From the NCBI GenBank assembly GCA_028694645.1, contig JAQVKM010000001.1:1-64000 (forward strand): a stretch of 64,000 bases of DNA, given 5' to 3'. The stretch is from Bacilli bacterium (GTDB lineage Bacteria > Bacillota_I > Bacilli_A > RF39 > UBA660). Positions 6,963-32,218 of the stretch are shown here, in pieces. Made by a program: the position numbers and the translations under genes. The first letter of the stretch is position 1; each line of letters starts with the position of its first letter. Below the pieces are notes generated by a model. That model did not search any database. It worked only from the letters and a program-made list of their open reading frames with translations, and was not told where the DNA came from.

Positions 6963-9263
6963 ATGGGAAAAGAATTAACTTTAGAAAATTTAAGTGTAAT
7001 TAAAAGAAATGGTAAAAAAGTTGATTTTGATGGAGCTAAAATAGCTTTAGCTATAAAAAAAGGCTTTGATAGCATAGAAATAGATGATGATGAAAATAAT
7101 AGTTATTCATATTCTGAAGAAGATATAAGAAAAATATATCAAGCTGTTATAAAAAGAATAGAAAAAGAATATGAAGAAAAAATTAAAATAGAAGAAATTC
7201 AAGATATGATTGAAGAAGAATTGAGAAAACAAGGATATCAAGATGTTTACAAATCTTTTTCAGAATATAGAGAAAGAAGAAATCAATCAAGAAATTTATT
7301 CTTTGATGAGAAAAAAACACATAAGTTTTTAAAATCAATTGAAGGATTAGGATTAAAATCAGCTAATGAAGATAATTCTAAAAGAGAAAATGCTAATGTA
7401 GATGGCGATACAGCCATGGGAACAATGCTACAATATGGCTCAACAATATCTAAAGAATTTGCTAAATCATATTTAATGAAAAAAAGATATTCTGATGCAC
7501 ATGATTCTGGTGATATTCATATTCATGACATGGATTTTCTTCCAATGGGAACAACAACTTGTATGCAAATAGAATTAGATAAACTTTATAAAAATGGTTT
7601 TTCAACAGGACATGGGCATTTAAGAGCTCCAAACGATATAGCTTCTTATTCAGCTTTAGCTGCTATAGCTATTCAATCAAACCAAAATGATCAACATGGC
7701 GGACAAAGTGTTCCAGCTTTTGATTATTACATGGCTCCAGGAGTTTTAAAAACATTTAAAAAACTATTTAAGCAACAATTATTTGATATATTAGATTATG
7801 AAGATTTATTAAATTTTATTAGTATTGATAGAATAACTAGAGAAATTGATAAATTAGATTCAATTGAATTTGATATTTCAAAATTTGAACCTATATATAA
7901 AGATTCAAAAAGAATTAAAGATTATTTTATTAAAAGTTATGAAAAAGCTTTACAAAAAACAAATAGAGCAACATATCAAGCAATGGAAGCATTTGTACAT
8001 AATTTAAATACAATGCATTCAAGAGCTGGAGCTCAAGTCCCATTTTCTTCAATTAATTTTGGAACAGATATTACTGCTGAAGGAAGAATGGTTATAAAAA
8101 ACTTTTTATTAGCTACTGACTCTGGATTAGGAAAAGGAGAAACACCAATTTTCCCAGTTTCAATATTCAAAGTAAAAGAAGGAATAAATTATAATAAAAA
8201 CGATAAAAACTATGATTTATTTAAATTGGCATGTAAAGTTTCATCTAAAAGACTTTTCCCAAATTTCTCATTCATAGATGCACCACATAATATACCTTAT
8301 TATAAGAATGGTGATTTTAAAACTGAAGTTGGATATATGGGATGTCGTACAAGAGTAATGAGTGATGTAACTGACTGTAATAATGAAACAACAGGTGGAA
8401 GAGGTAATTTATCTTTTACTTCTATTAACTTACCAAGAATAGCTATTAAAAATGGTATTTGCTTAAAAGAAAGAACAAAAGCAGATATGCAAAATTTTTA
8501 TCAAGATTTAGCTGATATGATGGATTTAGTTAGAGATCAACTTTTAGAAAGATTTGAAATACAATGTAGTAAACATAGTTATAATTTTCCATTTTTACTT
8601 GAACAAGGCGTTTGGACAGATGGAGACAAATTAAAACCAAATGATCGTTTAAGAAAAATATTAAAACATGGAAGTCTAACAATTGGTTTTATTGGGCTTG
8701 CAGAAACATTGAAAGCACTTATTGGTAAACACCATGGTGAAGATGAAGAAGCTCAAAAATTAGGATTAGAAATAATTGAATTTATGAGAAAAAGATGCGA
8801 TGAATATGCAAAAGAATATAAATTGAATTTTACTTTGATAGCAACCCCAGCGGAAGGACTATCTGGAAGATTTGTTGATATAGATAAAGCTATTTATGGC
8901 AAATTAAAAGGAATAACAGATAAAGAATATTATACTAATTCATTTCATATACCAGTATATTATTCAATAGGTATAAAAGAAAAAATAACTAAAGAAGCTC
9001 CATATCATCAATTAACAAATGGAGGACATATAAGTTATATTGAACTAGACGGAAATACCGCTATGAATGTTGAGGCATTTGAAAGTGTAATTAGATTAAT
9101 GAAAGAATCTGGGATTGGTTATGGGGCAATTAATCATCCAGTAGATAGAGATCCTGTTTGTGGATATATTGGGGTTATTGGTGACGTTTGCCCTGGTTGC
9201 GGAAGAAAAGAATTTGATAGTGTTCCACTTGAAAAATTAAATAATTTAGAATGTAGCTGTTAA
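6963..9263 (+). CDS. nrdD: anaerobic ribonucleoside-triphosphate reductase, main chain lacking the C-terminal glycyl-radical segment
   Basis: ATP-cone N-terminus, NrdD core, C-terminal zinc Cys motifs (CGY...CPGCG...CSC); TAA before the radical-site motif. Confidence 0.92.
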   Translation: MGKELTLENLSVIKRNGKKVDFDGAKIALAIKKGFDSIEIDDDENNSYSYSEEDIRKIYQAVIKRIEKEYEEKIKIEEIQDMIEEELRKQGYQDVYKSFSEYRERRNQSRNLFFDEKKTHKFLKSIEGLGLKSANEDNSKRENANVDGDTAMGTMLQYGSTISKEFAKSYLMKKRYSDAHDSGDIHIHDMDFLPMGTTTCMQIELDKLYKNGFSTGHGHLRAPNDIASYSALAAIAIQSNQNDQHGGQSVPAFDYYMAPGVLKTFKKLFKQQLFDILDYEDLLNFISIDRITREIDKLDSIEFDISKFEPIYKDSKRIKDYFIKSYEKALQKTNRATYQAMEAFVHNLNTMHSRAGAQVPFSSINFGTDITAEGRMVIKNFLLATDSGLGKGETPIFPVSIFKVKEGINYNKNDKNYDLFKLACKVSSKRLFPNFSFIDAPHNIPYYKNGDFKTEVGYMGCRTRVMSDVTDCNNETTGGRGNLSFTSINLPRIAIKNGICLKERTKADMQNFYQDLADMMDLVRDQLLERFEIQCSKHSYNFPFLLEQGVWTDGDKLKPNDRLRKILKHGSLTIGFIGLAETLKALIGKHHGEDEEAQKLGLEIIEFMRKRCDEYAKEYKLNFTLIATPAEGLSGRFVDIDKAIYGKLKGITDKEYYTNSFHIPVYYSIGIKEKITKEAPYHQLTNGGHISYIELDGNTAMNVEAFESVIRLMKESGIGYGAINHPVDRDPVCGYIGVIGDVCPGCGRKEFDSVPLEKLNNLECSC

Positions 9264-9276
9264 GGAGGTAGAAATT

Positions 9277-9444
9277 ATGGAAAAAACAGTTGGTGAAGGT
9301 GTAGGATTTGAAAGAATCAGAAGAGTAACAGGATATTTAGCAGGTGATGTTAAAAGATTCAATAATGGAAAAAGAGCTGAAGAAAAAGACCGTGTAAAAC
9401 ACTCTGGCATTAAAGAAGTAATTTCACAAAATAAAGAAAGCTAA
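9277..9444 (+). CDS. 55-aa separately encoded NrdD glycyl-radical domain
   Basis: MEKTVGEGVGFERIRRVTGYLAGDVKRFNNGKRAEEKDRVKHSGIKEVISQNKES; SD TAAGGAGGTAGAAATT-ATG; different frame from nrdD. Confidence 0.85.
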   Translation: MEKTVGEGVGFERIRRVTGYLAGDVKRFNNGKRAEEKDRVKHSGIKEVISQNKES

Positions 9445-9445
9445 T

Positions 9446-10012
9446 ATGAAAATTAGATTAGCTGCTTATTTACAAAGTGATAGCATTGTAGATGGAGAAG
9501 GAATTAGAACAGTTATTTGGACACAAGGATGCCCACACAACTGTTTTGGTTGCCATAATACATGTACGCATGACTTTAAAGCTGGTTTTACTGAAGATAT
9601 AGAAACTATTTGTAAAGATTTATCTTCATTAGAAGGACAAGATGGAATTACTTTTTCAGGAGGTGACCCTCTTTGTCAACCAGAAGCTTGCTTAGCAATA
9701 GCAAAGTTTGCTAAAACAATTAATTTAAATATTTGGTGTTATACGGGATACACTTTTGAAGAATTAATCAAAATGAGTCAAACAAAACCAGTCATATTAG
9801 AATTTTTAAATTATGTTGATGTCTTGATAGATGGCAAATTTGTAATGGCAGAAAAAAGCTTAGATTTAATGTTTAGAGGTTCTAAAAACCAAAGAGTTAT
9901 TGATGTTAAAAAAAGTTTAAAAAATAATAAACCATGTGTAATAAAAAAATATGATTATAAAGAAAACAAAAATGATTATAATTTTGCACATGATAAATAT
10001 TTGTTTGTATAG
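9446..10012 (+). CDS. nrdG: anaerobic ribonucleotide reductase activase (radical SAM)
   Basis: WTQGCPHNCFGCHN radical-SAM CxxxxxxCxxC motif; directly downstream of the glycyl-radical ORF. Confidence 0.92.
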   Translation: MKIRLAAYLQSDSIVDGEGIRTVIWTQGCPHNCFGCHNTCTHDFKAGFTEDIETICKDLSSLEGQDGITFSGGDPLCQPEACLAIAKFAKTINLNIWCYTGYTFEELIKMSQTKPVILEFLNYVDVLIDGKFVMAEKSLDLMFRGSKNQRVIDVKKSLKNNKPCVIKKYDYKENKNDYNFAHDKYLFV

Positions 10013-10036
10013 AATACCTTAGGTATTCTTTTTTTT
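10012..10036 (+). terminator. Rho-independent terminator after nrdG
   Basis: AGAATACCTTAGGTATTCTTTTTTT. Confidence 0.8.
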
Positions 10037-10081
10037 ATGTATTTTGAATTTTTTAAAACATAAAATATAATGGTGAATAAT

Positions 10082-10819
10082 ATGAAAAAAATTCATTTAA
10101 AAAAAAGAAAATTTAAATCTAAATCTAATGTTATTGTAATTATAATTTTAATAATTATGATAAGTATATACATTAGCTTTAGTTTTATAAATAAAAAAAT
10201 AATTCCTGTTTTTATGGATTATGCTGAAAGTGAAGCTAATAAAATAGCTGTTTTAGTTATAAATCAGGCTATTAATGAAGAAATAACTAATAATCTTAAT
10301 ATAGAAGATTTATTTCTAATTATAAAAGATAATAATGGTAATATTAAAAGTATTGATTTTAATCCAATATATGTAAATAAAATGTTAAGTAAAATCAATA
10401 ACAATGTCCAAAATTATTTGTCCAAATTAGAGCAAGGAAAAATAAATCTAGAGAATAATAAATATTATAATAAAAATGATAAATTAAAATCAGGAGTTAT
10501 ATTTGAAATACCAAGTGGGGTTATTTTTAATAATGTTATATTATCTAATATAGGCCCTAAAATACCAGTTAAATTAAATATGATAGGTAATATATCAAGT
10601 AATATTTATACTGATGTTACAGAATATGGAATTAATAATGCTGTTGTAAAAATATTTGTAAATATTCAAATGATGGAACAAGTAATATTACCTTATGTAT
10701 CAAAAAAAATTACAGTTAAATCAGATATTCCAATTGCAATTAAATTAATCCAAGGAGAAATTCCTAATTATTATTTTAATGGAATAAAAAGCTCTAATTT
10801 ATCTATCCCAACTAATTAA
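10082..10819 (+). CDS. sporulation protein YunB-like
   Basis: N-terminal TM, IIPVFMDYAESEANKIA...INQAI and C-terminal QGEIPNYYFNG, typical of YunB. Confidence 0.7.
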   Translation: MKKIHLKKRKFKSKSNVIVIIILIIMISIYISFSFINKKIIPVFMDYAESEANKIAVLVINQAINEEITNNLNIEDLFLIIKDNNGNIKSIDFNPIYVNKMLSKINNNVQNYLSKLEQGKINLENNKYYNKNDKLKSGVIFEIPSGVIFNNVILSNIGPKIPVKLNMIGNISSNIYTDVTEYGINNAVVKIFVNIQMMEQVILPYVSKKITVKSDIPIAIKLIQGEIPNYYFNGIKSSNLSIPTN

Positions 10820-10861
10820 TATTTAAAAAAAATAAATAATATGATATACTTATTTTAGTTA

Positions 10862-11170
10862 TTGAAAAGAGGTATAAATATGAAATATTTATTTATAAAT
10901 GATTTAAAATATGAATTAATTGAAAATTATAAAGATGCATTAAATATTGACGAACTAATAAATAAAATGACTGATTATTTTAATGAATTTGATTATGTAA
11001 TAGGTGATTATTCATATGGTAAATTACGTTTAAAAGGATTTTGTAATAAAGATAATAAAAATTACAAAGATATAAATGATATAAATAATTTAAAAATATA
11101 TATAAATGATTTTTGTGCTTATGATTGTAGATATTTTGTGATAAAAAAAATATCAGACGAAATAATGTAA
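10862..11170 (+). CDS. hypothetical protein
   Basis: 102-aa ORF with GAAAAGAGG RBS. Confidence 0.5.
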   Translation: MKRGINMKYLFINDLKYELIENYKDALNIDELINKMTDYFNEFDYVIGDYSYGKLRLKGFCNKDNKNYKDINDINNLKIYINDFCAYDCRYFVIKKISDEIM

Positions 11171-11234
11171 AATATAGTAAAGTTGCTATATTTTTTTTGA
11201 AAAATAAACTATAATATATATAAGAGGTGTAATA

Positions 11235-13358
11235 GTGGAAGAACAAATAATAGAATTATTAAAAAATAGTGATAAAGCTTTAGCTGTAGACGAAATAATA
11301 GATTTATTACAAAAAGATACTGTAGAAGAATTTAAAGAAACTTTAAAAACTTTAAATAAATTAGAAGATGAACTTAAAATATGTAGAACAAATAAAAACA
11401 AATATATGTTATTCGAAAACAATAATTTAAAAATAGGAACATTAATTGGAACGAAAAAATCATATGGATTTGTTGATATTGAAGGAAATGAAGATGTATT
11501 TATACCTCCAAATGCAATGAATGGAGCTATTCATAATGATAAAGTAATAGTAGAAATTACTAGCAAAAAAGGAATAGATTTAGAAGGACGAATTGTTAGA
11601 ATAGTTGATCGTAAATTAAATAATATGGTTGGAGAAGTTATTGTAAAAAATAATCAAAAAACTGTTGTTTTAGACAATGAAAGAGTTAAATTAAATGTAA
11701 TATTAGATGAAACAAAAGATAAAGGTGCAATGGAAGGCCATAAAGTATATGTCAAAATAACTAATAAAATAGGTGATAATACATATAATGGTGAAGTTAT
11801 AAAAATATTAGGTCATAAAAATGACCCAGGTGTAGATATATTATCAATTGTTTATAAATATGACATCAATGATACTTTTAGTGATGAGGTTATGAATGAA
11901 TTAGATGATATTCCATCTGTTGTTTCACAAGATGAAATCAATAAAAGAAGTAATCATGATCTAAGAAATATGACAATTTTTACAATAGATGGTAAAGACA
12001 CCAAAGATATAGATGATGCTATTTCTATTGAAAAATTAGAAAATGGTCATTATAAATTAGGTGTTCATATAGCTGATGTAAGTCATTATGTAAAAGAAGG
12101 AACAGCTTTATATAAAGAAGCAAGAGATAGAGGAACTAGTGTTTATTTAGCCGATCGCGTTATTCCAATGTTACCTCATAAATTATCTAATGGAATTTGC
12201 TCGTTAAACCCAAATGTTGATAGACTAGCAGTTACATGTATGATGGAAATTGATCAAAAAGGTAATACTGTTGATTATGATATATATGAAAGTGTTATTA
12301 AATCAAATATTCAAATGACTTATGAAAATGTAAATAAAATTCTTGAAGAAAACATAATCCCTGAAGGTTATGAACCTTTTGTAAATGATTTGAAAACAAT
12401 GAAGGAATTAGCTGATATATTACGTCAAATGAAAACAGAAAGAGGATATATAGATTTTGATTTAGATGAATCAAAAATAATTGTTAATGAACTAGGAGAA
12501 GCTGTTGATGTTGTATTAAGAGATAGAGGAACTGGAGAAAAATTAATTGAAGATTTCATGATTGCAGCTAATGAAACAATAGCTACACATGTTTATAATA
12601 TGGAATTTTTACCATTTGTTTATCGTATTCATGGTGAACCAAGCGAAGAAAAAATAACTAGATTTATTAATTATGTAAGTAGTTGTGGTTATACGTTAAC
12701 AGGTAAATTTGATAAAATGTATCCAAGTAGCATGCAAAAGATATTAGATCAATTAAAAGAAAAACCAGAATTCCATATATTTTCATCTTTATTATTAAGA
12801 AGTATGCAAAAAGCTGTATATGATATTAAAAATATAGGACACTTTGGTTTAGGTAGTAAATGTTATACACATTTTACTTCACCAATAAGAAGATTTCCAG
12901 ATACAACAGTACATCGTTTATTACATAAATATTTTGTTGATAACAAAATGGATTCAGATACCATTGATTTTGAAACACAAAATTTATTAGATATAACTGA
13001 ACATTCTTCAAAAAAAGAAAGAGATTCTGTTGATTGTGAAAGAGATGTTGATGATATGAAAAAAGCAGAATATATGCAAAAACATATCGGTGAAAATTTC
13101 ACGGGAATGGTATCAAGTATTATGTCTCGAGGAATGTATGTAGAACTTCCTAATTTAATAGAGGGAAGAGTTTCAATTGAAGATTTAAAAGATGATTATT
13201 ATACATTTGATGAATCTACAATTAGTTTAGTTGGAAATAAAAATAAAAGAGGATATCGCTTAGGAGATATAGTTAATGTAACTGTAAAAGCTGCAAGAAA
13301 AGATTTAGGTGAAATTGATTTTATTATTACAAAAGGACAAAAAGAAGAACAAAAATAA
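11235..13358 (+). CDS. rnr: ribonuclease R
   Basis: RNB domain (TIDGKDTKDIDDAIS...), CSD/S1 domains; next to smpB and ssrA. Confidence 0.95.
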   Translation: MEEQIIELLKNSDKALAVDEIIDLLQKDTVEEFKETLKTLNKLEDELKICRTNKNKYMLFENNNLKIGTLIGTKKSYGFVDIEGNEDVFIPPNAMNGAIHNDKVIVEITSKKGIDLEGRIVRIVDRKLNNMVGEVIVKNNQKTVVLDNERVKLNVILDETKDKGAMEGHKVYVKITNKIGDNTYNGEVIKILGHKNDPGVDILSIVYKYDINDTFSDEVMNELDDIPSVVSQDEINKRSNHDLRNMTIFTIDGKDTKDIDDAISIEKLENGHYKLGVHIADVSHYVKEGTALYKEARDRGTSVYLADRVIPMLPHKLSNGICSLNPNVDRLAVTCMMEIDQKGNTVDYDIYESVIKSNIQMTYENVNKILEENIIPEGYEPFVNDLKTMKELADILRQMKTERGYIDFDLDESKIIVNELGEAVDVVLRDRGTGEKLIEDFMIAANETIATHVYNMEFLPFVYRIHGEPSEEKITRFINYVSSCGYTLTGKFDKMYPSSMQKILDQLKEKPEFHIFSSLLLRSMQKAVYDIKNIGHFGLGSKCYTHFTSPIRRFPDTTVHRLLHKYFVDNKMDSDTIDFETQNLLDITEHSSKKERDSVDCERDVDDMKKAEYMQKHIGENFTGMVSSIMSRGMYVELPNLIEGRVSIEDLKDDYYTFDESTISLVGNKNKRGYRLGDIVNVTVKAARKDLGEIDFIITKGQKEEQK

Positions 13359-13853: not shown

Positions 13854-14233
13854 GGGGATGTCAAGGTTTCGACGGAAATGTTGAGCTTTAAACTGCAAGT
13901 GGAAGGTACTCCTTACGTACAAAAAAACAATAAATGCAAACAAAATAAAAACTGCATTTGCTTCAGTATTCAATAGCAATACTGTTGCCTTCGCTTAATT
14001 TAATTTAGGAAATGCAACTTTCTTTAAATCATTTTCTACGTGATTTACTGAGGGTTCGATTTAGTAGAATATATCATTATTTAGCTTAGTAATAATGATG
14101 AAATTTATAAGCTTGCTAAACAATGGATTGTTAGTTATTAACATTGTTTGGGACTTTAATTAACTAACTAAACTTGTAGATGTTTTCTGTTATATGTTTT
14201 CGGACAGGAGTTCAATTCTCCTCATCTCCACCA
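13854..14233 (+). ncRNA. ssrA: transfer-messenger RNA; tag ANKIKTAFASVFNSNTVAFA
   Basis: GGGGATGTCAAGGTTTCGACGG 5' end, 3' GGAGTTCAATTCTCCTCATCTCCACCA; tag frame GCA at 13936 to TAA at 13996-13998. Confidence 0.95.
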
Positions 14234-14328
14234 TATTGATAGGAAACTCGAACTTTTCGAGTATGTATAGAAAATACTAACTAAATTATAGTTGGTATTT
14301 TTTTGTGTACTAGGAAAGAGGGATTAAA

Positions 14329-14601
14329 ATGTTACAAATAGAAACTAAAGAAATTAAAATAAGTGAAGAATTAAAAAGAAAAATAGAAATGATAGGAAGA
14401 TTTACTAATACTAAACCAATAATTAAAAACGGAAGTATTAGAAATATAAAAGGGACTAATATTGCATATGTAGAACCTCATCAAATATTTATAAAAAATA
14501 ATATATATTTGATATATGATGAATCTGATATTGTATTTATAAATAATCTATATAATTCTATTTATTTAAAAGATTTAGAAAATTATATAAAACAAAATTA
14601 A
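14329..14601 (+). CDS. conserved small protein of the ssrA-associated elements (copy 1)
   Basis: Homologous to 21339-21614 and to the N-terminus of 28763-29344. Confidence 0.7.
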   Translation: MLQIETKEIKISEELKRKIEMIGRFTNTKPIIKNGSIRNIKGTNIAYVEPHQIFIKNNIYLIYDESDIVFINNLYNSIYLKDLENYIKQN

Positions 14602-14679
14602 AATCTTGACTTTGATAAGATAAAACTATATTATATAAAACTAGTAAGTGGCAAGTACTGCATTTAGTGGAGGTACATT

Positions 14680-14748
14680 ATGAATAAACCATTAAACAAG
14701 TTAAAACAATATAATAATCAAAGAGGAGTCAAGAGTATTAGTAAATAA
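14680..14748 (+). CDS. putative 22-aa leader peptide upstream of recombinase 1
   Basis: SD TGGAGG; MNKPLNKLKQYNNQRGVKSISK*; its 3' end overlaps a terminator hairpin. Confidence 0.55.
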   Translation: MNKPLNKLKQYNNQRGVKSISK

Positions 14749-14769
14749 TGCTTTTGTCTCCTCTTTTTT
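14721..14769 (+). promoter_or_regulatory. candidate transcription attenuator/terminator before serine recombinase 1
   Basis: AGAGGAGTCAAGAG...CTTTTGTCTCCTCTTTTTTT hairpin between leader ORF and recombinase. Confidence 0.65.
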
Positions 14770-14789
14770 TGATAGAAAGAGGGAAATGA

Positions 14790-16556
<1,767 letters not shown>

Positions 16557-16723
16557 AAAAAGAAAGTCAAAAGACTGTCAAAAATAAATTTGTATATACA
16601 AATAAAAAAGCAATAAATCTTTGATTTATAAGAGTAAAACTTGCTACTAGCAAGTTGTTGTAATACAGAACTTATCCTGATAAAAAGATAACAAAAAATT
16701 CTGCTTTAAAAAGGAGGCTTATT

Positions 16724-17152
16724 TTGAAAGATAATAAAATAACTGTGAGATTTTCTAATGATGAATTAGAAAAAATAAATGAAGTAGCAAAACAAAAAAA
16801 GATTAAAACAGCAACACTAATTAGAAATATAACTTTATCATCACTTACCAATCAAGAATTGCTAAGTGAAAAAGATGAACTAAGAGATTTTATAATTAAA
16901 ACAATTGAAGAATCTAGTGATAAAAAATTAGGAAGAATAATATCATTAATATTTAGAGCAACATCTAAAATAGAAGAAGTATTTGAGCAAAATGATTTAT
17001 TCTATCAAAATACTAGAGATTTCTATAATTGGGAATATGATAAAAAGGAATATATAAATAGAAATTATTATCATCCAATATCAGAACTTGCAATGGAATT
17101 TATTAAAGAAAGAGATGAAGAAAGAATGAAGAATAGAATTAAATCGGATTAG
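16724..17152 (+). CDS. RHH/MobC-like DNA-binding protein
   Basis: KITVRFSNDELEKINEVAKQKKIKTATLIRNITLSSL; paralogue fused in 28763-29344. Confidence 0.65.
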   Translation: MKDNKITVRFSNDELEKINEVAKQKKIKTATLIRNITLSSLTNQELLSEKDELRDFIIKTIEESSDKKLGRIISLIFRATSKIEEVFEQNDLFYQNTRDFYNWEYDKKEYINRNYYHPISELAMEFIKERDEERMKNRIKSD

Positions 17153-17190
17153 TAAAATATCAAAATATTCTATAAAATAATTAAAAACCC

Positions 17191-17219
17191 TTGAAAATTC
17201 GGGGGGGGTATGTTATTAT
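17191..17219 (+). promoter_or_regulatory. DGR target promoter with a G8 tract in the spacer
   Basis: TTGAAA (17191-17196), 17-bp spacer containing GGGGGGGG (17201-17208), extended -10 TGT-TATTAT (17211-17219). Confidence 0.7.
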
Positions 17220-17257
17220 ATTGTTAATCAATAAATTAATAGTAGAGGAGTAAGAAT

Positions 17258-18907
17258 ATGAGTTATTTTAAATTATGTAGTAAAAAGATTGTTGATTTAA
17301 AAAAAACAGGTTTTACATTAATCGAGTTATTAGCAGTAATAGTAATATTAGCAATAATAGCATTAATTGCAACACCAACGATTTTAGGAGTAATAGAAAA
17401 AGCTAAAAAAGGAGCAGCAGAAGCAAGTGCATTAGGTTATATAGATGCAGTAGAAAAGTTATCATTAACTTCATCTTTAAATGGAGATGATTCATTAAAT
17501 GAGGGAACTTATGAAGTACCTACATTAAATTCAAAAGTAGATATAAAAGGAAAAAAACCAACATTAGGTAATGTTACCGTAAATTCTGACGGTGAGGTAA
17601 CGAGTGCGACTCTTGCTATAAATGGTTATAAAGTTAGTTATACTGACTCAATAGCAAAAGTAGTGAGTAGTGAAATTACTGACATGACATATACTGAAAA
17701 TGTATTGAAAGGAACAGATCCAGTCCTAGGTACAGGAATGATACCAGTAACAATAGCAAATGATGGAACAGTAACATATGCTGATGTAAATAAAGAATGG
17801 TATAACTATACAGATAAGAAATGGGCAAACGCAGTAAAATTATCTTCAGGAACATATGCAGTAGGACAAGTTATACCGGAGTCTGCAATACAATCATATT
17901 TTGTGTGGATACCAAGATATAAATATAAAATATTTAATATAGGAAATTATACAAGTGGAATAACAGGAACACCAACTAGTAGTACAAAACAAAGTATAGA
18001 AATAGTATTTGAATCAAAAGATAAAACTGTATCAACAGGAAATACAGTAGGATCATATTTAACTCATCCCGCCTTTACAGCTTTAGATACAAATGGAATC
18101 TGGGTTGGTAAATTTGAAACAGGATATTTAGGTGCAACAACGAAAGAAACAGCTCAAGTAACAAGTTCTGATCAAACTAAAATAATAGTTAAACCTAATG
18201 TATTTAGTTGGAGGAATAATACAATTTATAACATGTTTGTTTCAAGTTATAACTATGATAGAACAAATGATTCTCATATGATGAAAAATACAGAGTGGGG
18301 AGCAGTAGCATATCTTTCACATTCCGTATATGGAATAAATAAAGAAGTAAATATAAATAATAACTCATCATATAAAACAGGGTATAGTGCCTTAACTACA
18401 ACTAATCAAACAACATATCCAGGAACATATGGTGATGGATCAAACTATAATAATGCATATAATACAACAACAGGTTACCTAGCATCAACAACCGGAAATA
18501 TAACAGGAATATATGATATGTCTGGTGGAGCTTGGGAATATATGGCTTCATATATGTTTGGACAACTTGGAAGTAGTGGATTTACTGCTGCTAATATTGC
18601 AACTTATAATTCAAAATATTTTGATATTTATAGTGCTTCAAGTACAATAACAGGTTATAATTACAGAATATTAGGAGATGCGACTGGAGAAATAGGGCCA
18701 TTTTATAGTTATGCAGATGGAGATGGAAGTACAAGATACCATAACAGTTGGTACGCTGACTATTCGTACTTCGTTGAGTCTTCTTACCCTTGGTTCAATC
18801 GAGGCGGTGGTTACTACAGTGGAGTTCTTGCGGGTCAGTTCAATTTCAGTAGGAACACAGGGGCTGTGTACACTAGCGTTGGTTCCCGCCTCGTTCTTGC
18901 AGGCTAA
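17258..18907 (+). CDS. DGR target protein: prepilin-type N-terminus plus FGE-sulfatase/C-type-lectin-like variable domain
   Basis: KTGFTLIELLAVIVILAIIALIATP prepilin motif; C-terminal WYADYSYF...WFNRGGGYYSGVLAG...GSRLVLAG encoded by VR. Confidence 0.92.
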   Translation: MSYFKLCSKKIVDLKKTGFTLIELLAVIVILAIIALIATPTILGVIEKAKKGAAEASALGYIDAVEKLSLTSSLNGDDSLNEGTYEVPTLNSKVDIKGKKPTLGNVTVNSDGEVTSATLAINGYKVSYTDSIAKVVSSEITDMTYTENVLKGTDPVLGTGMIPVTIANDGTVTYADVNKEWYNYTDKKWANAVKLSSGTYAVGQVIPESAIQSYFVWIPRYKYKIFNIGNYTSGITGTPTSSTKQSIEIVFESKDKTVSTGNTVGSYLTHPAFTALDTNGIWVGKFETGYLGATTKETAQVTSSDQTKIIVKPNVFSWRNNTIYNMFVSSYNYDRTNDSHMMKNTEWGAVAYLSHSVYGINKEVNINNNSSYKTGYSALTTTNQTTYPGTYGDGSNYNNAYNTTTGYLASTTGNITGIYDMSGGAWEYMASYMFGQLGSSGFTAANIATYNSKYFDIYSASSTITGYNYRILGDATGEIGPFYSYADGDGSTRYHNSWYADYSYFVESSYPWFNRGGGYYSGVLAGQFNFSRNTGAVYTSVGSRLVLAG

Positions 18908-18911
18908 AATT
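18752..18911 (+). repeat. DGR variable repeat (VR)
   Basis: 160-bp gap-free match to TR 19051-19210 (offset 299); 15 mismatches, 14 at TR adenines. Confidence 0.95.
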
Positions 18912-18924
18912 TCGGAAATTTTAG
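18904..18924. other. inverted repeat overlapping/abutting the VR 3' end (candidate DGR hairpin/cruciform)
   Basis: CTAAAATTTC-G-GAAATTTTAG perfect arms. Confidence 0.75.
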
Positions 18925-18947
18925 TCTAACCCTTTTTCTTTGAATGG

Positions 18948-18981
18948 AGTATGCCCTGCCCCTTTTTAGGCAGGGCATACT
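18948..18981. other. 13-bp perfect stem hairpin between VR and TR
   Basis: AGTATGCCCTGCC-CCTTTTTA-GGCAGGGCATACT. Confidence 0.8.
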
Positions 18982-19050
18982 AAAAATTATGGCATTTATT
19001 TTAAATAAATGTAGGCATTAAACTGTTAAAAAACTAACCCTTTAACTCTT

Positions 19051-19210
19051 TACGCTGACAATTCGAACTTCGTTGACTCTTCTAACCCTTGGTTCAATCG
19101 AGGCGGTAATTACAACAATGGAGTTCTTGCAGGTCAGTTCAATTTCAATAGGAACACAGGAGCTGTGAACACTAACATTGGTTCCCGCCTCGTTCTTGCA
19201 GACTAAAATT
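19051..19210 (+). repeat. DGR template repeat (TR)
   Basis: 160-bp homologue of VR, AAT/AAC-rich at variable codons, between target gene and RT. Confidence 0.95.
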
Positions 19211-19357
19211 ATAAAGTTATATTCTTCATCAATATATAAGTTTAAGGACTTATAAAAGATGCTTATTTTAGAAGTTTAAGGCCTATCTATTTATTAGATA
19301 AAAATATAAATAAAATATTTTGATGAGTAGTAAAATGATGAAAACTAGAATATTTAT

Positions 19358-19386
19358 GCAGTACAACTTTTTTGTTCTGCTTTTTT
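19358..19386 (+). terminator. terminator downstream of TR
   Basis: GCAGTACAACTTTTTTGTTCTGCTTTTTT. Confidence 0.7.
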
Positions 19387-19415
19387 AGTGTTTTACAGAT
19401 TTTGGAGGTATGTTT

Positions 19416-19781
19416 ATGAGTAAAATATACAATGAATATTTAAGATTAAAAGAAATTGATAGTAATAAATTATATTTATTTAAAAGTGGCAAATTTTATA
19501 TATTTGTAGGTGATGATTGTGATTTGATAAATGAATGTGTAGTATTAAAGAAAACCCCTTTTTCAAAAGAAACTTTTAAATGTGGGTTCCCAGTTAATTC
19601 TTTAGAACAATATTTGAGAGTTTTTAGTAATCATAAATTAAATATTCAAGTTGTGGAAGAAATAAGTGATATCGATGAACCAAAAATAGTGCTTGATTTT
19701 ATAAAGGAAATAGATATAGATAATATTACTCCAATGGAAGCAATAATAACTTTGAAAAAATTAAAGGACTTAGTAAGATGA
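19416..19781 (+). CDS. MutS-like DGR accessory protein (MutS domain I plus MutS-like C-terminal tail, no ATPase)
   Basis: YLRLKEIDSNKLYLFKSGKFYIFVGDD...FKCGFPVNSLEQYL resembles MutS domain I; ends ITPMEAIITLKKLKDLVR like MutS C-terminal TPLEALN-L-EL. Confidence 0.75.
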   Translation: MSKIYNEYLRLKEIDSNKLYLFKSGKFYIFVGDDCDLINECVVLKKTPFSKETFKCGFPVNSLEQYLRVFSNHKLNIQVVEEISDIDEPKIVLDFIKEIDIDNITPMEAIITLKKLKDLVR

Positions 19782-20143
19782 ATGATAAAAAGAGTGCAGA
19801 AGATTTAATTATATATAAGCAATATTTAATTTTAATATATTATACGGAGATGATAACTGAAAAATTTCCTAAAAGTCAAAAATTGTCATTAGTAACAAAT
19901 ATTAAAAATAATACATATGATGGTATGAAAAAAATAATACTTGCTTATAAATATTATGAAAAAACTGATAAATTAAAATCACTAAATGAGCTTGATATTA
20001 ACTTAAAAATGCTAAAAGTATTAATTAGAATTTCTTATAAACGAAAATATATAAATAGTAAAAATTATGAAGCTTGGAGTAAAAAAATAAATAATATTGG
20101 TAATTTATTAGGTGGCTGGATTGTATCATGTCTAAAACAATAA
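19778..20143 (+). CDS. avd: Avd-like four-helix-bundle DGR accessory protein
   Basis: 121-aa basic helical protein; ATGA overlap with upstream ORF, overlaps RT start. Confidence 0.8.
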   Translation: MNDKKSAEDLIIYKQYLILIYYTEMITEKFPKSQKLSLVTNIKNNTYDGMKKIILAYKYYEKTDKLKSLNELDINLKMLKVLIRISYKRKYINSKNYEAWSKKINNIGNLLGGWIVSCLKQ

Positions 20144-21165
20144 AAAATATGTTCAATAGTAAACTAACTTTTGAAAAACTTTTACAAGCTCATGAAAGAG
20201 CTAGCATAGGTAAAAAATGTAGAAAAGAAATTATTTTATTTGAAATGGATTTAGAAACTAATATTATAAAAATTCTTAATGATTTAAAAAATAGTAAATA
20301 TAAATTTGGTAATTATAGGGAATTTATAATATATGAACCAAAAGAACGAATAATTAAATCATTACCTTATAAAGATAGAATTGTCCATCAATGGTATATA
20401 AGTGAATTTGTTAAACCTTTTTTCTATCGGAGATTTATTATTGATTCATATGCATGCATAGATAATAGGGGTACTCATAATGCAGTATGTAAAATTCAAA
20501 AATATATGCAAAAAATGAAGAAAAAGTATGATGATTATTATGTTTTAAAATGCGATATTAAGAAATTTTTTTATAGTATTAATAAAGAGATTTTATTTAA
20601 TATAATAAAGGAAAATATCTCAGATAAGAAGTTATTAGAATTAACTAAAAATATATTAAGTACAGAAGATAATAAGGGAATACCAATAGGCAATTATACT
20701 AGTCAATTTTTTGCTAATATATATTTAAATGAACTTGATCATTATATAAAAGAAGAATTATATGTTAAATATTATATTAGATATATGGATGATTTTATTT
20801 TACTAGTGCCTAATAAGGAAATTGCAAATGAATTAAATACCAAAATAAAGGAATTTGTAGAGATAAAATTAGATTTAGAATTAAATAGAAAAACTAAGTA
20901 TTTTCCATCAAAATTTGGTATAGATTTTTGTGGATATAAAATATTTGAAACACATATTTTATTAAGAAAAAGATTTAAGAAGAAGTTTAAAAAAAATATT
21001 ATTTTATGGAATAAACTTTATTATAATAACAAACTAAATTATAATAAAATGAGTATGAGTTTAAATTCATATATAGCTCATTCAAATCACTGTAATAGTT
21101 ATAATTTCAAAAACGAAATATTAAAAAAAATAGAATTTGTAATTGATGATAATTTCAAAATATGA
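20128..21165 (+). CDS. DGR reverse transcriptase
   Basis: YIRYMDDFILLV catalytic box; IGNYTSQFFANIYLNELD DGR-type motif; next to TR. Confidence 0.95.
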   Translation: MSKTIKNMFNSKLTFEKLLQAHERASIGKKCRKEIILFEMDLETNIIKILNDLKNSKYKFGNYREFIIYEPKERIIKSLPYKDRIVHQWYISEFVKPFFYRRFIIDSYACIDNRGTHNAVCKIQKYMQKMKKKYDDYYVLKCDIKKFFYSINKEILFNIIKENISDKKLLELTKNILSTEDNKGIPIGNYTSQFFANIYLNELDHYIKEELYVKYYIRYMDDFILLVPNKEIANELNTKIKEFVEIKLDLELNRKTKYFPSKFGIDFCGYKIFETHILLRKRFKKKFKKNIILWNKLYYNNKLNYNKMSMSLNSYIAHSNHCNSYNFKNEILKKIEFVIDDNFKI

Positions 21166-21240
21166 TAACATTATCGTAGTTAGTATTTACTTACTACCTA
21201 TTTAATATTGCCGAAAGTTGTCGTACTGGTAACTCTAACG

Positions 21241-21245
21241 CACCA
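21241..21245 (+). other. CACCA junction, element 1/element 2 (att-like)
   Basis: Left flank GTCGTACTGGTAACTCTAACG-CACCA matches 32844-32848 context; right flank has hairpin 21256-21276 (AGTCGAA/TTCGACT). Confidence 0.6.
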
Positions 21246-21338
21246 GAGGGAAATTAGTCGAAATAATTATTCGACTTTCAAATATAAAGGTTAATTTCGA
21301 TTAACTTTTTTTTGTGTATTTGAAAGGAGATTGATTAA

Positions 21339-21614
21339 ATGATAAATATAACAAAAGAAAATATAGAAATAGAAGATTCTTTAAATAATAGAATTAAAAG
21401 TATAACAAAGTTTCTAGGAGTAAAATCAAAACTTATAAAAGGTAAATTAATAAGTATAGATAAAACAAATTTAGCTTATATTGAGCCACATAAATTAGAA
21501 GTTAATAATATTACATATTTATTCTTTAATGATTCAACTTTAGTTTATATAAATTCTTTAGAAAACTCTATTGATATAAGTGCTTTAAAAGATTATATAA
21601 AAAGTAAAAACTAA
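21339..21614 (+). CDS. conserved small protein of the ssrA-associated elements (copy 2)
   Basis: Aligns with 14329-14601 (TNLAYIEPHKLEV vs TNIAYVEPHQIFI). Confidence 0.7.
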   Translation: MINITKENIEIEDSLNNRIKSITKFLGVKSKLIKGKLISIDKTNLAYIEPHKLEVNNITYLFFNDSTLVYINSLENSIDISALKDYIKSKN

Positions 21615-21707
21615 TGCCTATAAAAAATGTTGACAAACTTATAATAAAAGTTTATAGTAATAAATCAATGAAGTTGTATTTCCAAAATTAGTAAATGGAG
21701 GGATTAT

Positions 21708-21767
21708 ATGAAAATAAAATTTATTGATTCAAATTATTATATATCAAAGAGGAGTCAAAGGTATTAG
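21708..21767 (+). CDS. putative 19-aa leader peptide upstream of recombinase 2
   Basis: SD ATGGAGGG; MKIKFIDSNYYISKRSQRY*; overlaps hairpin. Confidence 0.5.
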   Translation: MKIKFIDSNYYISKRSQRY

Positions 21768-21796
21768 TTTAACTAGTGCTTTTGACTCCTCTTTTT
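21746..21796 (+). promoter_or_regulatory. candidate attenuator/terminator before serine recombinase 2
   Basis: AAAGAGGAGTCAAAG...CTTTTGACTCCTCTTTTT; homologous to 14721-14769. Confidence 0.65.
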
Positions 21797-21800
21797 GTGA

Positions 21801-23603
<1,803 letters not shown>

Positions 23604-24848
23604 ATGAGTTATGCAATATTTAGAGTAGAACCAATTAATACCTTAAAAGATTTAGGACAAATAGGAGCTCATAATAAAAGATTGAAGGAAGCCTATAAAA
23701 GTAATCCTGATATTAATAAATTTAAATCAAGTGAAAATGTTCAAATAATTGATTGTAATAAAAACCACTATAATTCTTATATGGAATTAGTTAAAGATTA
23801 TAAAGAGCAACATGATAAAAAACAATTAGTGGAAAGAGAAAATAGAAAGAAAACATTTAATCAAATGTTAGATGATTCTAATAGTGTAGTAGCTGATGAA
23901 TTATTATTTACTAGTGATAAAGATTTCTTTAAAAATATGAATAAAGATGAAATTATTAATTGGGCAAATACTTGTATGGAATTTGTTTATGAAGATATTG
24001 GTTATAGTAAAAATCAAATTTTAAATGCAGTAATTCATTTAGATGAAAAAACACCACACTTGCATTGTGTGGTGGTACCATTAATAAAAAAATATGATAA
24101 AAGAAGTAAAGAAGAAAAATGGACTATTTCTAAAAAACAATATATGAAAGATAGAGATTACTTATCTACCTTACAAGATAAATATCATAGTAGAATGGTT
24201 AAAAATGGATATGATTTAGATAGAGGTATTAAAAACTCTGATAATGAACATATTGATATAAAACAATATAAACAAATAACTAAAAAATTAAATTTAGAGA
24301 TAACTAGTAAAAATGAAAAATTAAGTGATGCAATGAGTGATTTGGAAAATAAAATGGAAACTAATAAAGAAACTATTTTTGATAAAGAATTTGTTAAAAT
24401 TAAAAAAGATACTTTTGAATCAATGAATAAAGTTATTAATGAAACAAAAAAAGTAATAGAATTACAACCAAAAATACAAAGAGTTTATAATGAAGTTGAT
24501 GAATATGCAAAATCATATAAGTATTTAGAAGAAGAGAATGAAAATATTAAAAGAGAAGTTGAAATATTAAAGTATAAGAATAACAATTTAGAAAGAGAAA
24601 ATAGTAGGTTAAATAACTATATAGAATCCATTTTAGAAGTAATAAAGAGATTCTTTAGACAAATACTAAAGATAGGAAATAAAGAAGCTAAAAATGAGGC
24701 AGTTAGTGAAATAAAGAATTTTTATGATAAAGAAGATTTTAACAAAGAAGATGTTTATGAAGTATCAAAAGATACTATTAAAGAAGATGAATTATTTAAA
24801 TATGCAGATATTGACAAAAATTATTTTAAGGAGGAGAAGAAATTATAG
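23604..24848 (+). CDS. MobV-type (Mob/Pre) relaxase
   Basis: NAVIHLDEKTPHLHCVVVP relaxase motif; long coiled coil C-terminus. Confidence 0.9.
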   Translation: MSYAIFRVEPINTLKDLGQIGAHNKRLKEAYKSNPDINKFKSSENVQIIDCNKNHYNSYMELVKDYKEQHDKKQLVERENRKKTFNQMLDDSNSVVADELLFTSDKDFFKNMNKDEIINWANTCMEFVYEDIGYSKNQILNAVIHLDEKTPHLHCVVVPLIKKYDKRSKEEKWTISKKQYMKDRDYLSTLQDKYHSRMVKNGYDLDRGIKNSDNEHIDIKQYKQITKKLNLEITSKNEKLSDAMSDLENKMETNKETIFDKEFVKIKKDTFESMNKVINETKKVIELQPKIQRVYNEVDEYAKSYKYLEEENENIKREVEILKYKNNNLERENSRLNNYIESILEVIKRFFRQILKIGNKEAKNEAVSEIKNFYDKEDFNKEDVYEVSKDTIKEDELFKYADIDKNYFKEEKKL

Positions 24849-25052
24849 AAAATGAGCATATTGTAAAATTTATTTGGCTATGTTGTTTAATTTTATTAAA
24901 TAATTCATAATGATTTGAGTCTTTAAAATAATTTTTCATAAAATTAAAAAAATATTCTCCACTTTGCTATTTTAAAAAGTATAATTATTGGTTATTAAAT
25001 AGCTGAAAAATAATTTATATATATTATTTTATAGTAGAAAGGAGAAAATGCA

Positions 25053-25613
25053 ATGAAAAAAATTATTTCTATTATTATATTAGTTATTACATTTATAAGT
25101 TTTGGAATTTTAAATGTTAAAGCTTTAGATTATAATAATCAAATTAAATTTAATTATAGATATAGCAGAGAAATAAATAATTCATGCTATTGGATTAGTA
25201 GTTCTGCATCAGGATTTACTAATAGCATTAATAATGCTGCATATGATTGGGCACATTGGAGTAATCCACTTGTACTGACACCAGTTTCAAGCAGTTACGC
25301 AACGCATATGGATTTTTATGGAAAACCATCATCATATTGGTATCCATATAATGGTGTTCTTGGTGAGACAACGCATTATACATCGAGCGGATCATATATA
25401 TATCCTGATAATGGTAATTGGTTTTATGCAGATATTTATTTAAATAACGATAGTGTATACAATTATCAAGGAACAGCTGCACATGAAATGGGACATGCAT
25501 TAGGATTAGCTCATTGGAATAGCAATCCATATAGTATTATGGCACAATCTAGTACTAGAATAGTTCAAGTTGTACAATCAATTGATAATCAACACTTGAA
25601 TGAAAAATATTAG
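25053..25613 (+). CDS. secreted metzincin-type zinc metalloprotease
   Basis: Signal peptide; HEMGHALGLAH plus downstream Met-turn-like SIMAQ. Confidence 0.88.
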   Translation: MKKIISIIILVITFISFGILNVKALDYNNQIKFNYRYSREINNSCYWISSSASGFTNSINNAAYDWAHWSNPLVLTPVSSSYATHMDFYGKPSSYWYPYNGVLGETTHYTSSGSYIYPDNGNWFYADIYLNNDSVYNYQGTAAHEMGHALGLAHWNSNPYSIMAQSSTRIVQVVQSIDNQHLNEKY

Positions 25614-25628
25614 TTGAAAGGAGAAAAT

Positions 25629-26318
25629 ATGAATAAGAAAATTATTATAGCCTTAGGGTTAATAGCCTTAACCGGAATAACTTATATAAGTATAAATTAT
25701 TTTTCAAAAAGTAATGATGATGAATCATTATCAAATAACACTACTAATTTAAAATATACAGAAAACAAAAACATAATAATAAATCAAGTTTCAGACTTAG
25801 ATATGATATATGACAATTCCAATACTTCTGAATTAGAAGAAAGAAGCGATTTGATTATTATTGGTAAAATAAAAAAAATTGATGGTGCAATAAACTATAA
25901 TGCTGCAAAAAAACAATATATTATGACATCAACAATTGGTACAATAAAAATTAAAAATATAATAAAAGGTAATAATATTGTTTCTAAAAATGATGAAATT
26001 AATTTTGCTAGATTAGGTGGTACAATTAGTATTGCTGAATATGAAAAATCTTTAGAACCAAGACAAATAGTTAGACAAGGATTAGATAAATTAACTGAAG
26101 AAGAAAAAAGAAATTCTTATATTAAGGTATCAATATCAGAAGATATTGAACCTCAAGAAAGCAAGGATTATCTAATATATTTAAAGTATGATGCTGATCT
26201 CGACAGATATGCCATTATTGGCATGGAATATGGTTTAAAAGAATATAATGAAAATAAAAAACTAGTGAAAAATAACAGCACTAATAAATGGGAAGCAATA
26301 AAGTACGAAATAAAATAA
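25629..26318 (+). CDS. membrane-anchored extracellular protein
   Basis: N-terminal TM, RBS AAAGGAG, directly downstream of the metalloprotease. Confidence 0.6.
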   Translation: MNKKIIIALGLIALTGITYISINYFSKSNDDESLSNNTTNLKYTENKNIIINQVSDLDMIYDNSNTSELEERSDLIIIGKIKKIDGAINYNAAKKQYIMTSTIGTIKIKNIIKGNNIVSKNDEINFARLGGTISIAEYEKSLEPRQIVRQGLDKLTEEEKRNSYIKVSISEDIEPQESKDYLIYLKYDADLDRYAIIGMEYGLKEYNENKKLVKNNSTNKWEAIKYEIK

Positions 26319-26451
26319 ATTTCTTAAATAGATTTTTAATATAAAAATCAGGTATAGTAATATACTTGATTTTTTAAATATATTTTTACCGTTTTTTAAA
26401 AAATTGATGTATAATATATATTATATATTAATTTTTTAATTTGTAGAGGGT

Positions 26452-26973
26452 GTGTGCATGCAGATGAATTTAAAAGAAGCTTTATTAAATTTAAATGAAA
26501 ACAGTATTAAATATTTATACGTTAATTATAAGAAGCCAATTTTTTTGTTTGTCTTGGGTATTACAAATAATTATGATCTAAGTGAAGATATAACAGAAGA
26601 AACATTCTTTAGGATAATTAAATATAATAAAAGTTATAATGAAATAAAAAATCCTAAAACTTGGATATTTACAATAGCAAAAAATACAGCATATACTTAT
26701 TTAAAAAAGAATAATGATATATTATTTGAAGACGAAAAATTAGAATATATATTAAATAAACATAATAGTGTAAAAAATGATGATGCCTTAGTTATTGAGG
26801 AATATTTATCATCTTTGACTAAGATTGAAAGAGATATTGTTATTTTGCATATTTTTGGTGGTTTAAATCATAAAGATATATCAAAAGTTCTGGATTTAAA
26901 CCATTCACAAGTAAGAACAAAATATACATATGCTTTAAAAAAACTAAAAGGGAGAATCGGAAAAAATGAGTAG
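26452..26973 (+). CDS. ECF-family RNA polymerase sigma factor
   Basis: Region 2 (DLSEDITEETFFRIIKY) and region 4 (LTKIERDIVILHIFGGLNHKDISKVLDLNHSQVRTKYTYALKKLK). Confidence 0.88.
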   Translation: MCMQMNLKEALLNLNENSIKYLYVNYKKPIFLFVLGITNNYDLSEDITEETFFRIIKYNKSYNEIKNPKTWIFTIAKNTAYTYLKKNNDILFEDEKLEYILNKHNSVKNDDALVIEEYLSSLTKIERDIVILHIFGGLNHKDISKVLDLNHSQVRTKYTYALKKLKGRIGKNE

Positions 26974-27721
26974 TAAAAAATTAAAAAAAATTATCAATGA
27001 TAGTATTAATATTGAATCAAAGGAATTTTTGAGTAATTTATTAAATAATTCCGAAATTAAAAATGTAAGGATAATTAGAAAAGAAAGAACTAAATTAGTT
27101 TTTAGATTTGCTATGTTTATTTTACTTATATCAATATGCTTTATCAATCTAAATAATGATAAGTCGAGAGTTAATAAATTTGACAATAATAAAATTAAAC
27201 ATGATATTATTAATGTTAATAATTTTCCATATGATGTTGATGAGCAAGGTAATTATCCTATATTTGATAATGTAAATGGTATTATATCGCGAAATATTGA
27301 TATAACCAGCATAAATAATCTTTTTAAAGTAAATATTGTTGAAAATAGATTTGCAAATTATTATATTATAAATGAATGCAATTACAGCATGCCTCAAAAT
27401 ACTGTAATTTCTTGTACAGTTAATTTAAATAGTAAAATAAATAGTAATTCTAAAATGCAAATAAAAATGACAAATGGTGCATTTCCTTTATTTGATGATG
27501 AAATAAATGATAAATGGGAAGTTTATATAAAAGAAAACAATTTTCTGATTTCAAAGATCAATGATTTCAACTTAATTATAGTTCAAAATACAAATAATGA
27601 GTTTAATAACTATAAAACAAAATTTATTATAGAAAAAATAGGTATTTCAATTGATTCTTATGACATGAATTTAGAAGAAATAAAGTGTTTGTTGAAAATA
27701 ATAATAAATTCTATAAAATAG
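26966..27721 (+). CDS. membrane protein coupled to ECF sigma factor (putative anti-sigma)
   Basis: Overlaps the sigma gene; single TM (FAMFILLISICFI) with extracytoplasmic domain. Confidence 0.6.
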   Translation: MSSKKLKKIINDSINIESKEFLSNLLNNSEIKNVRIIRKERTKLVFRFAMFILLISICFINLNNDKSRVNKFDNNKIKHDIINVNNFPYDVDEQGNYPIFDNVNGIISRNIDITSINNLFKVNIVENRFANYYIINECNYSMPQNTVISCTVNLNSKINSNSKMQIKMTNGAFPLFDDEINDKWEVYIKENNFLISKINDFNLIIVQNTNNEFNNYKTKFIIEKIGISIDSYDMNLEEIKCLLKIIINSIK

Positions 27722-27828
27722 TAATTATAATTAATTATGTTATTAAATTTCACAATGCTTAAAAAGTGTTAAAAAAATAATTATCAACATATCATTAACT
27801 ATCTTTTGATAACCAAATGAGTAACACA

Positions 27829-27879
27829 CTACGCTATTGGCAGAGCCAATAACGGTGTGCAAATGGGTAGCCCTTTTGA
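27829..27879. other. candidate structured RNA
   Basis: ACACACTACGCTATTGGCAGAGCCAATAACGGTGTGCAAATGGGTAGCCC: nested stems ACAC/GTGT and TATTGGC/GCCAATA plus GGGTAGCCC hairpin in an intergenic gap. Confidence 0.35.
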
Positions 27880-28093
27880 AAACCTATAATGCATAATATT
27901 GCAATTAAAATTATATTTTAAAAAAATAAGTTTTCTCTATTGATAAAGCACATCGCTACTTTCTAAAATGATTGGCAAATCTTTAATATTCTAATTATTT
28001 TTTTGTATATAATTTTTTAAATATTAATAAAATTTTAAAAATATGATATAATTACTTAAAGACAAATATTAATTTGAAAGTGAGTTTAATTTT

Positions 28094-28507
28094 ATGAATA
28101 AAAAAATCACAATAATTTTATCTGTAATAATTTTTGTTGTAACTATTTTTGTAATTATTTTACTCAAAAATAATTATTTAAAAGAAAATGTTATTATACA
28201 TAATAATGAAAGATATGCAAGAATAAAAAAAGATGTTGAATTTGAAATTATAAGATATGTTGAACTTGTTACACCTATATGTGAAAATAATGGTGGTGAA
28301 ATGTTAATAACTCATAAAACTATGGTATATAATGGAGGTTTTGATAAGGAAAAATTGCTAGATGTGGATAATAAATCATACTGTAGTGTCTATGCTTTAT
28401 CAAGTTGTAATGGTGAAAATAAACATACATATAAAATTTATATAAAATGCAATGATTATGAGGATAATGGTTTTGTACAAAGGGATGAACCGTTCACAAA
28501 AAAATAA
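28094..28507 (+). CDS. hypothetical secreted/membrane protein
   Basis: N-terminal TM; 137 aa. Confidence 0.5.
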   Translation: MNKKITIILSVIIFVVTIFVIILLKNNYLKENVIIHNNERYARIKKDVEFEIIRYVELVTPICENNGGEMLITHKTMVYNGGFDKEKLLDVDNKSYCSVYALSSCNGENKHTYKIYIKCNDYEDNGFVQRDEPFTKK

Positions 28508-28663
28508 TAATTTGCAGTGATATAATTCATGTAAGTAAAAAAAATTGTATATAAATGACATAATTAAAAATTGAATAATATATTTTTTATTTAAATTTCA
28601 AAAATGTGATATAATAATCTTAGAAATTAACTAAATAAAATTTCCAAACGTCCTTTACAGGCG

Positions 28664-28668
28664 CACCA
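28664..28668 (+). other. CACCA junction, element 2/element 3 (att-like)
   Basis: CACCATAGTGATTGTTACTCGAACTTTTCGAGTATG... matches the sequence following ssrA. Confidence 0.65.
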
Positions 28669-28762
28669 TAGTGATTGTTACTCGAACTTTTCGAGTATGT
28701 ATAGAAAATACTAACTAAATAAATAGTTGGTATTTTTTTGTGTACTAGGAAAGAGGGATAAT

Positions 28763-29344
28763 ATGTTACAAATAGAAACTAAAGAAATCAAGATAAGTGA
28801 AGATTTAAAAAGAAAAATTGAAATGATAGGAAGATTTACTAATACTAAACCAATAATTAAAAATGGAAGTATTAGAAATATAAAAGGAACTAATATTGCA
28901 TATGTTGAACCTCATCAAATATTTATAAAAGATAATAAAGTAACTGTAAGGTTTTCAAGTGTTGAATTAGAAAAAATAAATGAAGTAGCAAAACAAAAAA
29001 ATATTAAAACAGCAACTTTAATTAGAAATATAACTTTATCATCAATTACAAATCAAGAATTACTAAGTGAAAAAGATGAACTAGGAGATTTTATAATTAA
29101 AACAATTGAAAAATCTAGTGATAAAAAACTAGGTAGAATAATATCATTAATATTTAGAGCGACTTCTAAAATAGAAGAAGTATTTGAACAAAATGATTTA
29201 TTTTATCAAAATACTAGAGATTTTTATAATTGGGAGTATGATAAAAAAGAATATGCTAATAAAAACTATTATCACCCAATATCTGAACTAGCTATGGAAT
29301 TCATTAAAGAAAGAGATGAAGAAAGAATTAAGAATAGTAAGTAA
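28763..29344 (+). pseudogene. chimeric ORF: small element protein N-terminus fused to the RHH/MobC-like protein
   Basis: N-terminus matches 14329 ORF up to EPHQIFIK, then matches 16724 ORF from DNK(I/V)TVRFS; the intervening recombinase is absent. Confidence 0.8.
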
Positions 29345-29460
29345 TAAAAGAAGTAAATCTTATATTAAAATAAAAATATAAATAGAAAGAACCTATTGTT
29401 TGGATATTATTTAATAGAAATTAATGATATAATATTTATAACGAATTACGGAGTGATATT

Positions 29461-31758: not shown

Positions 31759-31917
31759 TATAAATGTTATAAAAAATAATTTTTTAGAATATTATAATCA
31801 AAATATTTTTTGAAATAATAATATTTTTGATATTTAATAATAGGCTAGTGTGGTAGTGTAAAGAGTTTGACAAAATATAAATATATATTTATAATATGAT
31901 GTAAGAAAGGAGATATT

Positions 31918-32217: not shown

Positions 32218-32218
32218 A

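Follow-up and report, generated by a model that had tools for sequence, protein, structure and literature searches.

In the window (the whole stretch of 64,000 nucleotides that we analysed), the ssrA (tmRNA) gene identified by ARAGORN at 13854–14233 ends in a 3' CCA that is the attachment site of a 7,012-bp serine-recombinase element carrying a DGR, which we call E1 (14234–21245; right end GTTGTCGTACTGGTAACTCTAACGCACCA); ssrA, E1 with its genes and repeats, and the elements E2 and E3 described below are all on the forward strand. Between the attachment site and the recombinase gene lies an open reading frame of 90 aa (14329–14601) with homologues in nearly all related elements. The recombinase itself (14790–16556) is a large serine recombinase with Resolvase and Recombinase domains (PF00239, E = 2e-34; PF07508, E = 1e-17) and an RVST motif, and is followed by a NikA-like or ribbon-helix-helix protein, putatively for mobilisation or regulation (16724–17152), whose match to PF21983 (E = 7e-5) is below the cut-off. 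The DGR then comprises a target gene encoding a 549-aa type IV prepilin (17258–18907), a variable repeat (VR, 18752–18911), a template repeat (TR, 19051–19210), a MutS domain I protein (19410–19781; PF01624, E = 4e-9, over the cut-off), Avd (19778–20143; PF22296 (bAvd), E = 6e-22, and NF033474, both over the cut-off) and a reverse transcriptase (RT, 20128–21165; PF00078; phrog_1423, E = 3e-111; PDB 8ub7, E = 5e-49) with the motifs IGNYTSQ at 187 and YMDD at 219. All DGR frames are open and the RT motifs are intact; the MutS_I and Avd genes overlap by 4 bp, and those of Avd and the RT by 16 bp. The PF01624 protein corresponds to MSL, a known DGR accessory (PMC10053308), and the order target–TR–MutS_I–Avd–RT is largely kept among the closest Bacilli loci. 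(In one relative, L087, the same variable domain occurs in two genes that flank the RT, at 6573–8048 and 10170–12224.)

The VR and TR align without gaps over 160 bp and differ at 15 positions, comprising nine A-to-G changes, five A-to-T changes and one C-to-G change. TR adenines account for 14 of these 15 mismatches; with 44 A among the 160 TR bases, the chance of placing at least 14 of 15 mismatches on A is 3.0e-8 (hypergeometric test), and at non-A sites the two repeats are unlike at only 1 of 116. The changes in VR are adenine-directed and mostly non-silent, the variable codons of the target are mainly AAC/AAT, and VR extends 4 bp beyond the target's stop codon (18905–18907). A 9-bp stem is found directly after the VR of E1 and not after its TR; among the loci compared such a stem was equally frequent after VR (8/51) and TR (8/51), and we therefore dropped a hairpin 3' of VR (as in BPP-1) as a general mark.

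The original prediction, which had been made from sequence alone, gave these coordinates for the 160-bp repeats and counted 15 mismatches, all but one at TR adenines, and this held exactly. Its claim that MutS-like, Avd and RT genes follow the target in an overlapping operon held in both coordinates and family matches, and its assignment of a DGR-type RT with YMDD and IGxxxSQ motifs was supported by family matches and motifs, without a phylogeny. Its overall claim of a complete DGR held as well, the RT, Avd, MSL, TR/VR bias and variable fold each being present. The DGR belongs to a known kind, every testable hallmark being present; ongoing VR variation and retrohoming are inferred only.

The target begins with a prepilin leader (PF07963, E = 2e-6, and TIGR02532, both over the cut-off) and ends in a C-terminal variable domain (residues ~145–549) that an iterated profile search linked to ~50 other open reading frames of DGR loci. 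A weak model of the full-length target (pLDDT 61.6), for which Foldseek gave no significant match, was superseded by an AlphaFold model of the C-terminal domain alone built from 37 sequences (pLDDT 88.6, pTM 0.92). The best solved structures found with this model were the DGR variable proteins TaqVP (E = 2.7e-7, prob 1.00) and BPP-1 Mtd (E = 4e-4). The TM-scores were moderate, at 0.46 and below, and we therefore take the domain to be of the same fold family as TaqVP and Mtd, and not a close match. The earlier claims of a lectin-like variable domain and of a prepilin leader both held, and the pilus assembly genes that had been suggested as a check were found elsewhere in the genome, as homologues of PilB, PilC and PilD. 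Display at the surface or on a pilus stays an inference; in particular, we have no assembly or display data for a pilus as opposed to a pseudopilus or a membrane-held prepilin. Among relatives the same variable domain sits behind either a prepilin leader or a transmembrane anchor, with about half of the closest relatives bearing a signal or transmembrane anchor in place of the leader, and the leader therefore looks like a swappable display device. Separately, the whole genome has 61 prepilin-leader matches in 1.2 Mb, as compared with 4–23 per genome in 24 other members of the family, a strong prepilin expansion.

E1 is present twice. Positions 14234–21245 are 100% identical to positions 143947–150958 of the same contig (C14), where the second copy lies behind tRNA-Leu(tag); including the edge, the identical block spans 14229–21245 and C14:143942–150958. 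The left borders of the two copies fall directly after the CCA of ssrA and of tRNA-Leu(tag), respectively, the right border is GCACCA in both copies, and both ends are thus at (C)ACCA. The RNA gene stays intact beside the element, which is held between the CCA of that gene and a second CCA. The flanks of the copies are unlike and their junctions precise, and the stretch that separates the copies contains no sequence gap (the sole N run of the contig is at C14:164119–164218); an assembly error is therefore unlikely, with the proviso that consensus assembly of this draft genome could conceal small differences between the copies. (That run of 100 N falls within a row of near-identical prepilin genes and is probably a scaffold gap.) In an empty-site check, the sequence to the right of the second copy was found directly behind tRNA-Arg (C19) and tRNA-Gly (C17), with 137 of 142 positions identical. 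Both copies carry the same VR, and in this consensus there has thus been no diversification since the duplication. The original prediction of an ssrA-adjacent mobile element was in this way both upheld and extended: the DGR is cargo of E1, and E1 is duplicated.

At ssrA, E1 heads a tandem row in which every junction is at GCACCA. It is followed by a second serine-recombinase element inserted at the same site, E2 (21246–28668; orf91, recombinase at 21813–23603, Mob_Pre at 23604–24848), and by E3 (28669–32848), a decayed relative of E1 with an orf90–NikA fusion, no remaining recombinase and a right end that is 2 mismatches from that of E1. The cargo of E2 includes a small secreted protein with the zinc-protease motif HEMGHALGLAHW (25053–25613). 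Profile searches gave no family match for the 90-aa open reading frame of E1, and the 91-aa one at 21339–21614 likewise has none; both lie beside a recombinase, and it is possible that such frames encode a directionality factor. With respect to known classes of island, the E1 recombinase did not qualify as the SCC recombinase CcrB (136.5 bits against an NCBIfam equivalog cut-off of 900). E1 meets the Islander-type criterion of insertion at a tRNA/tmRNA 3' end and fails that of a tyrosine integrase, since its recombinase is a serine recombinase.

Of the 145 genomes of the family, 58 encode homologues of the E1 recombinase at an E value of 1e-60 or better. At 28 of 39 distinct recombinase loci a tRNA or tmRNA gene lies 420–680 bp upstream on the same strand, every time with an NCCA end followed by a related left end. 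Assuming ~45 tRNA genes per genome, ~1.3% of loci would be expected behind a tRNA by chance, and the probability of finding 28 of 39 there is ~1e-44; among the other 11 loci, some are truncated at a contig end or belong to a tandem arrangement. The RNA genes used include tmRNA and at least six tRNA species (Leu, Gly, Thr, Met, Phe and Cys). A 2014 survey stated that serine recombinases were not known to target tRNA genes, and the text of a 2022 survey of large serine recombinases does not mention tRNA (later work may exist). This RT was absent from every related recombinase element examined, and no such recombinase adjoined any related DGR examined, so the pairing of DGR and recombinase rests on one genome. 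Prepilins were likewise absent from the examined elements of relatives, and no prepilins related to the target were found in the viral contigs searched.

The genome contains other prepilins with VRs. A second complete DGR, on C8, has an RT 56% identical to that of E1 and its own prepilin target; its VR and TR differ at 15 positions, of which 14 are TR adenines. (Beside the C8 DGR, in locus L042, are STAS (12254–12604), sigma-factor-like (11604–12254) and SpoVA-like (8800–10580) open reading frames, which we read as a sporulation operon in a genome of 1.2 Mb.) An unlinked prepilin gene on C13, without an RT, differs at 13 of 38 TR adenines as compared with 4 of 106 non-A sites (p = 6e-6), and its silent identity is 0.86 in the 3' end versus 0.65 upstream. 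The TR lineage of E1 wrote the 3' end of this gene, which may be a past target. Paralogues on C9 (two genes), C12 and C18 showed no preference for TR adenines (p = 0.25–1.0) and were rejected as current targets in trans, a role retained for the C13 gene.

Three further prepilins have VR-like, GC-rich 3' ends in otherwise AT-rich genes (C14:152423–153532, C17:106816–107919 and C19:15972–17099; L040, L326 and L050, respectively). In these ends, changes at codon positions 1 and 2 outnumber those at position 3 by 69:14, as compared with 225:205 in the gene body (p = 1e-7). A genome screen for such ends returned eight open reading frames, seven of them prepilins, namely the four known VR carriers and the three new ones. 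No template or RT for the three was found in the assembly, in which contigs C4 and C7 consist of N only. A complete DGR in L117, which is another genome of the family, has a homologous prepilin target (E = 2e-22) with an equally placed VR.

All three of these prepilins lie behind tRNA CCA ends, either directly or after other units. The one on C17 is held in a 1,491-bp unit (C17:106556–108046) that is bordered by two TCCA and ends in the E1 right-end motif with 2 mismatches, and a unit of ~1.3 kb at C14:150959–152293 contains a prepilin without a GC-rich end and has the motif with 3 mismatches. The right-end motif occurs at five places in the genome and at none in three shuffled genomes. By inference, the C17 and C14 units appear to be non-autonomous pilin cassettes moved in trans. 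A bolder reading, for which the balance of evidence currently falls a little short, is that serine recombinases acting at tRNA ends move both whole DGRs and single prepilin cassettes with DGR-written ends.

Taken together, our findings make it very likely that a complete DGR is moved as cargo by a serine-recombinase element; the mobility is read from sequence and the display is inferred. From established DGR biology, the RT–Avd complex would copy TR RNA and misread its adenines; the resulting cDNA would take the place of VR and so randomise chiefly AAC/AAT codons in the C-type-lectin-like domain of the prepilin. The PilD of the genome may process the prepilin, and the PilB/PilC machinery may assemble or hold it, such that the variable domain would be exposed outside the cell as an adhesin of changing specificity. 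The recombinase, in turn, is predicted to recognise the T-arm and CCA that tRNA genes have in common, which would therefore provide one enzyme with many sites.

The alternative that survives best concerns display: it is possible that the target is a membrane-held or pseudopilus protein and no part of a pilus, as in transmembrane-anchored DGR relatives. In favour of this, about half of the closest relatives anchor the same domain by a signal or transmembrane segment; against it, the prepilin leader is conserved and PilB, PilC and PilD are encoded in the genome. We consider it unlikely that the DGR is inactive, with a frozen VR and the RT as a passenger. The identical VRs of the two copies and the one C-to-G change off adenine would fit such a view, but the frames are open, the RT motifs are intact, the VR changes are adenine-directed and mainly non-silent, and TR and VR have remained alike at all but 1 of 116 non-A sites. 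(The VR evidence comes from one genome, the only one representing its genus, without population reads.) Finally, it is very unlikely that the DGR is simply resident where it lies, with an unrelated element as a chance neighbour, and that its second copy is a segmental duplication or an assembly artefact: 100% identity over 7 kb can arise in assembly and the related DGRs of the family lie outside such elements, but CCA marks the exact limits of both copies, each of which adjoins a different RNA gene, no gap lies between them (the sole N run being elsewhere) and the left-end motif is common to the recombinase family.

The DGR carried by E1 resembles that of Bordetella phage BPP-1 (Brt, Avd and Mtd) in its adenine-biased TR-to-VR changes, its Avd, its C-type-lectin-like domain and its IGxxxSQ-type RT motif (IGSLTSQ in Brt, IGNYTSQ here), and differs from it in its cellular target, prepilin leader, MutS_I accessory and serine-recombinase carrier. 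Membrane-anchored cellular DGRs (Roux et al. 2021, PMC8144416) also have a surface-anchored variable protein, and the DGR of Treponema denticola (PMC4891356), like this genome, has a leftover or remote target with TR-type changes; unlike either, the system described here has a prepilin leader, a mobile, duplicated DGR and several unlinked prepilin VRs. A pilus component is also a DGR target in the type V tip pilins of Bacteroides (cited in PMC12632263), but those are lipoproteins with an unrelated assembly, whereas the E1 target is a type IV prepilin. For the recombinase, the tandem islands at ssrA in Dehalococcoides with the serine recombinase DsiB (PMC3146451) are a partial precedent for serine recombinases at tRNA ends; those islands use a T-loop crossover, 20-bp repeats and ssrA, whereas the E1 family uses a CCA crossover and many tRNAs.

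The core of the DGR is already known. The novelty lies in its vehicle, in the presence of that vehicle as two identical copies, in the recombinase family found at tRNA ends and in the units that are candidate pilin cassettes. That mobile elements spread DGRs has long been suspected, and E1 supplies a concrete means of doing so: a compact element whose borders are exact, which is present in two copies and for which an empty site can be compared. Contrary to the published statement, our results also point to a large family of serine recombinases with insertion sites at the 3' ends of tRNA genes; for genome engineering, a single enzyme that can use many sites without harm is of interest. The relatives of the host are Bacilli that have not been cultured, and animal guts are the source of many of them (as judged from sample names), and our findings extend DGR targets to type IV prepilins of host-associated Bacilli with very small genomes. 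If the bolder reading of the cassettes were true, one small chromosome would gather and spread several self-diversifying pilins.
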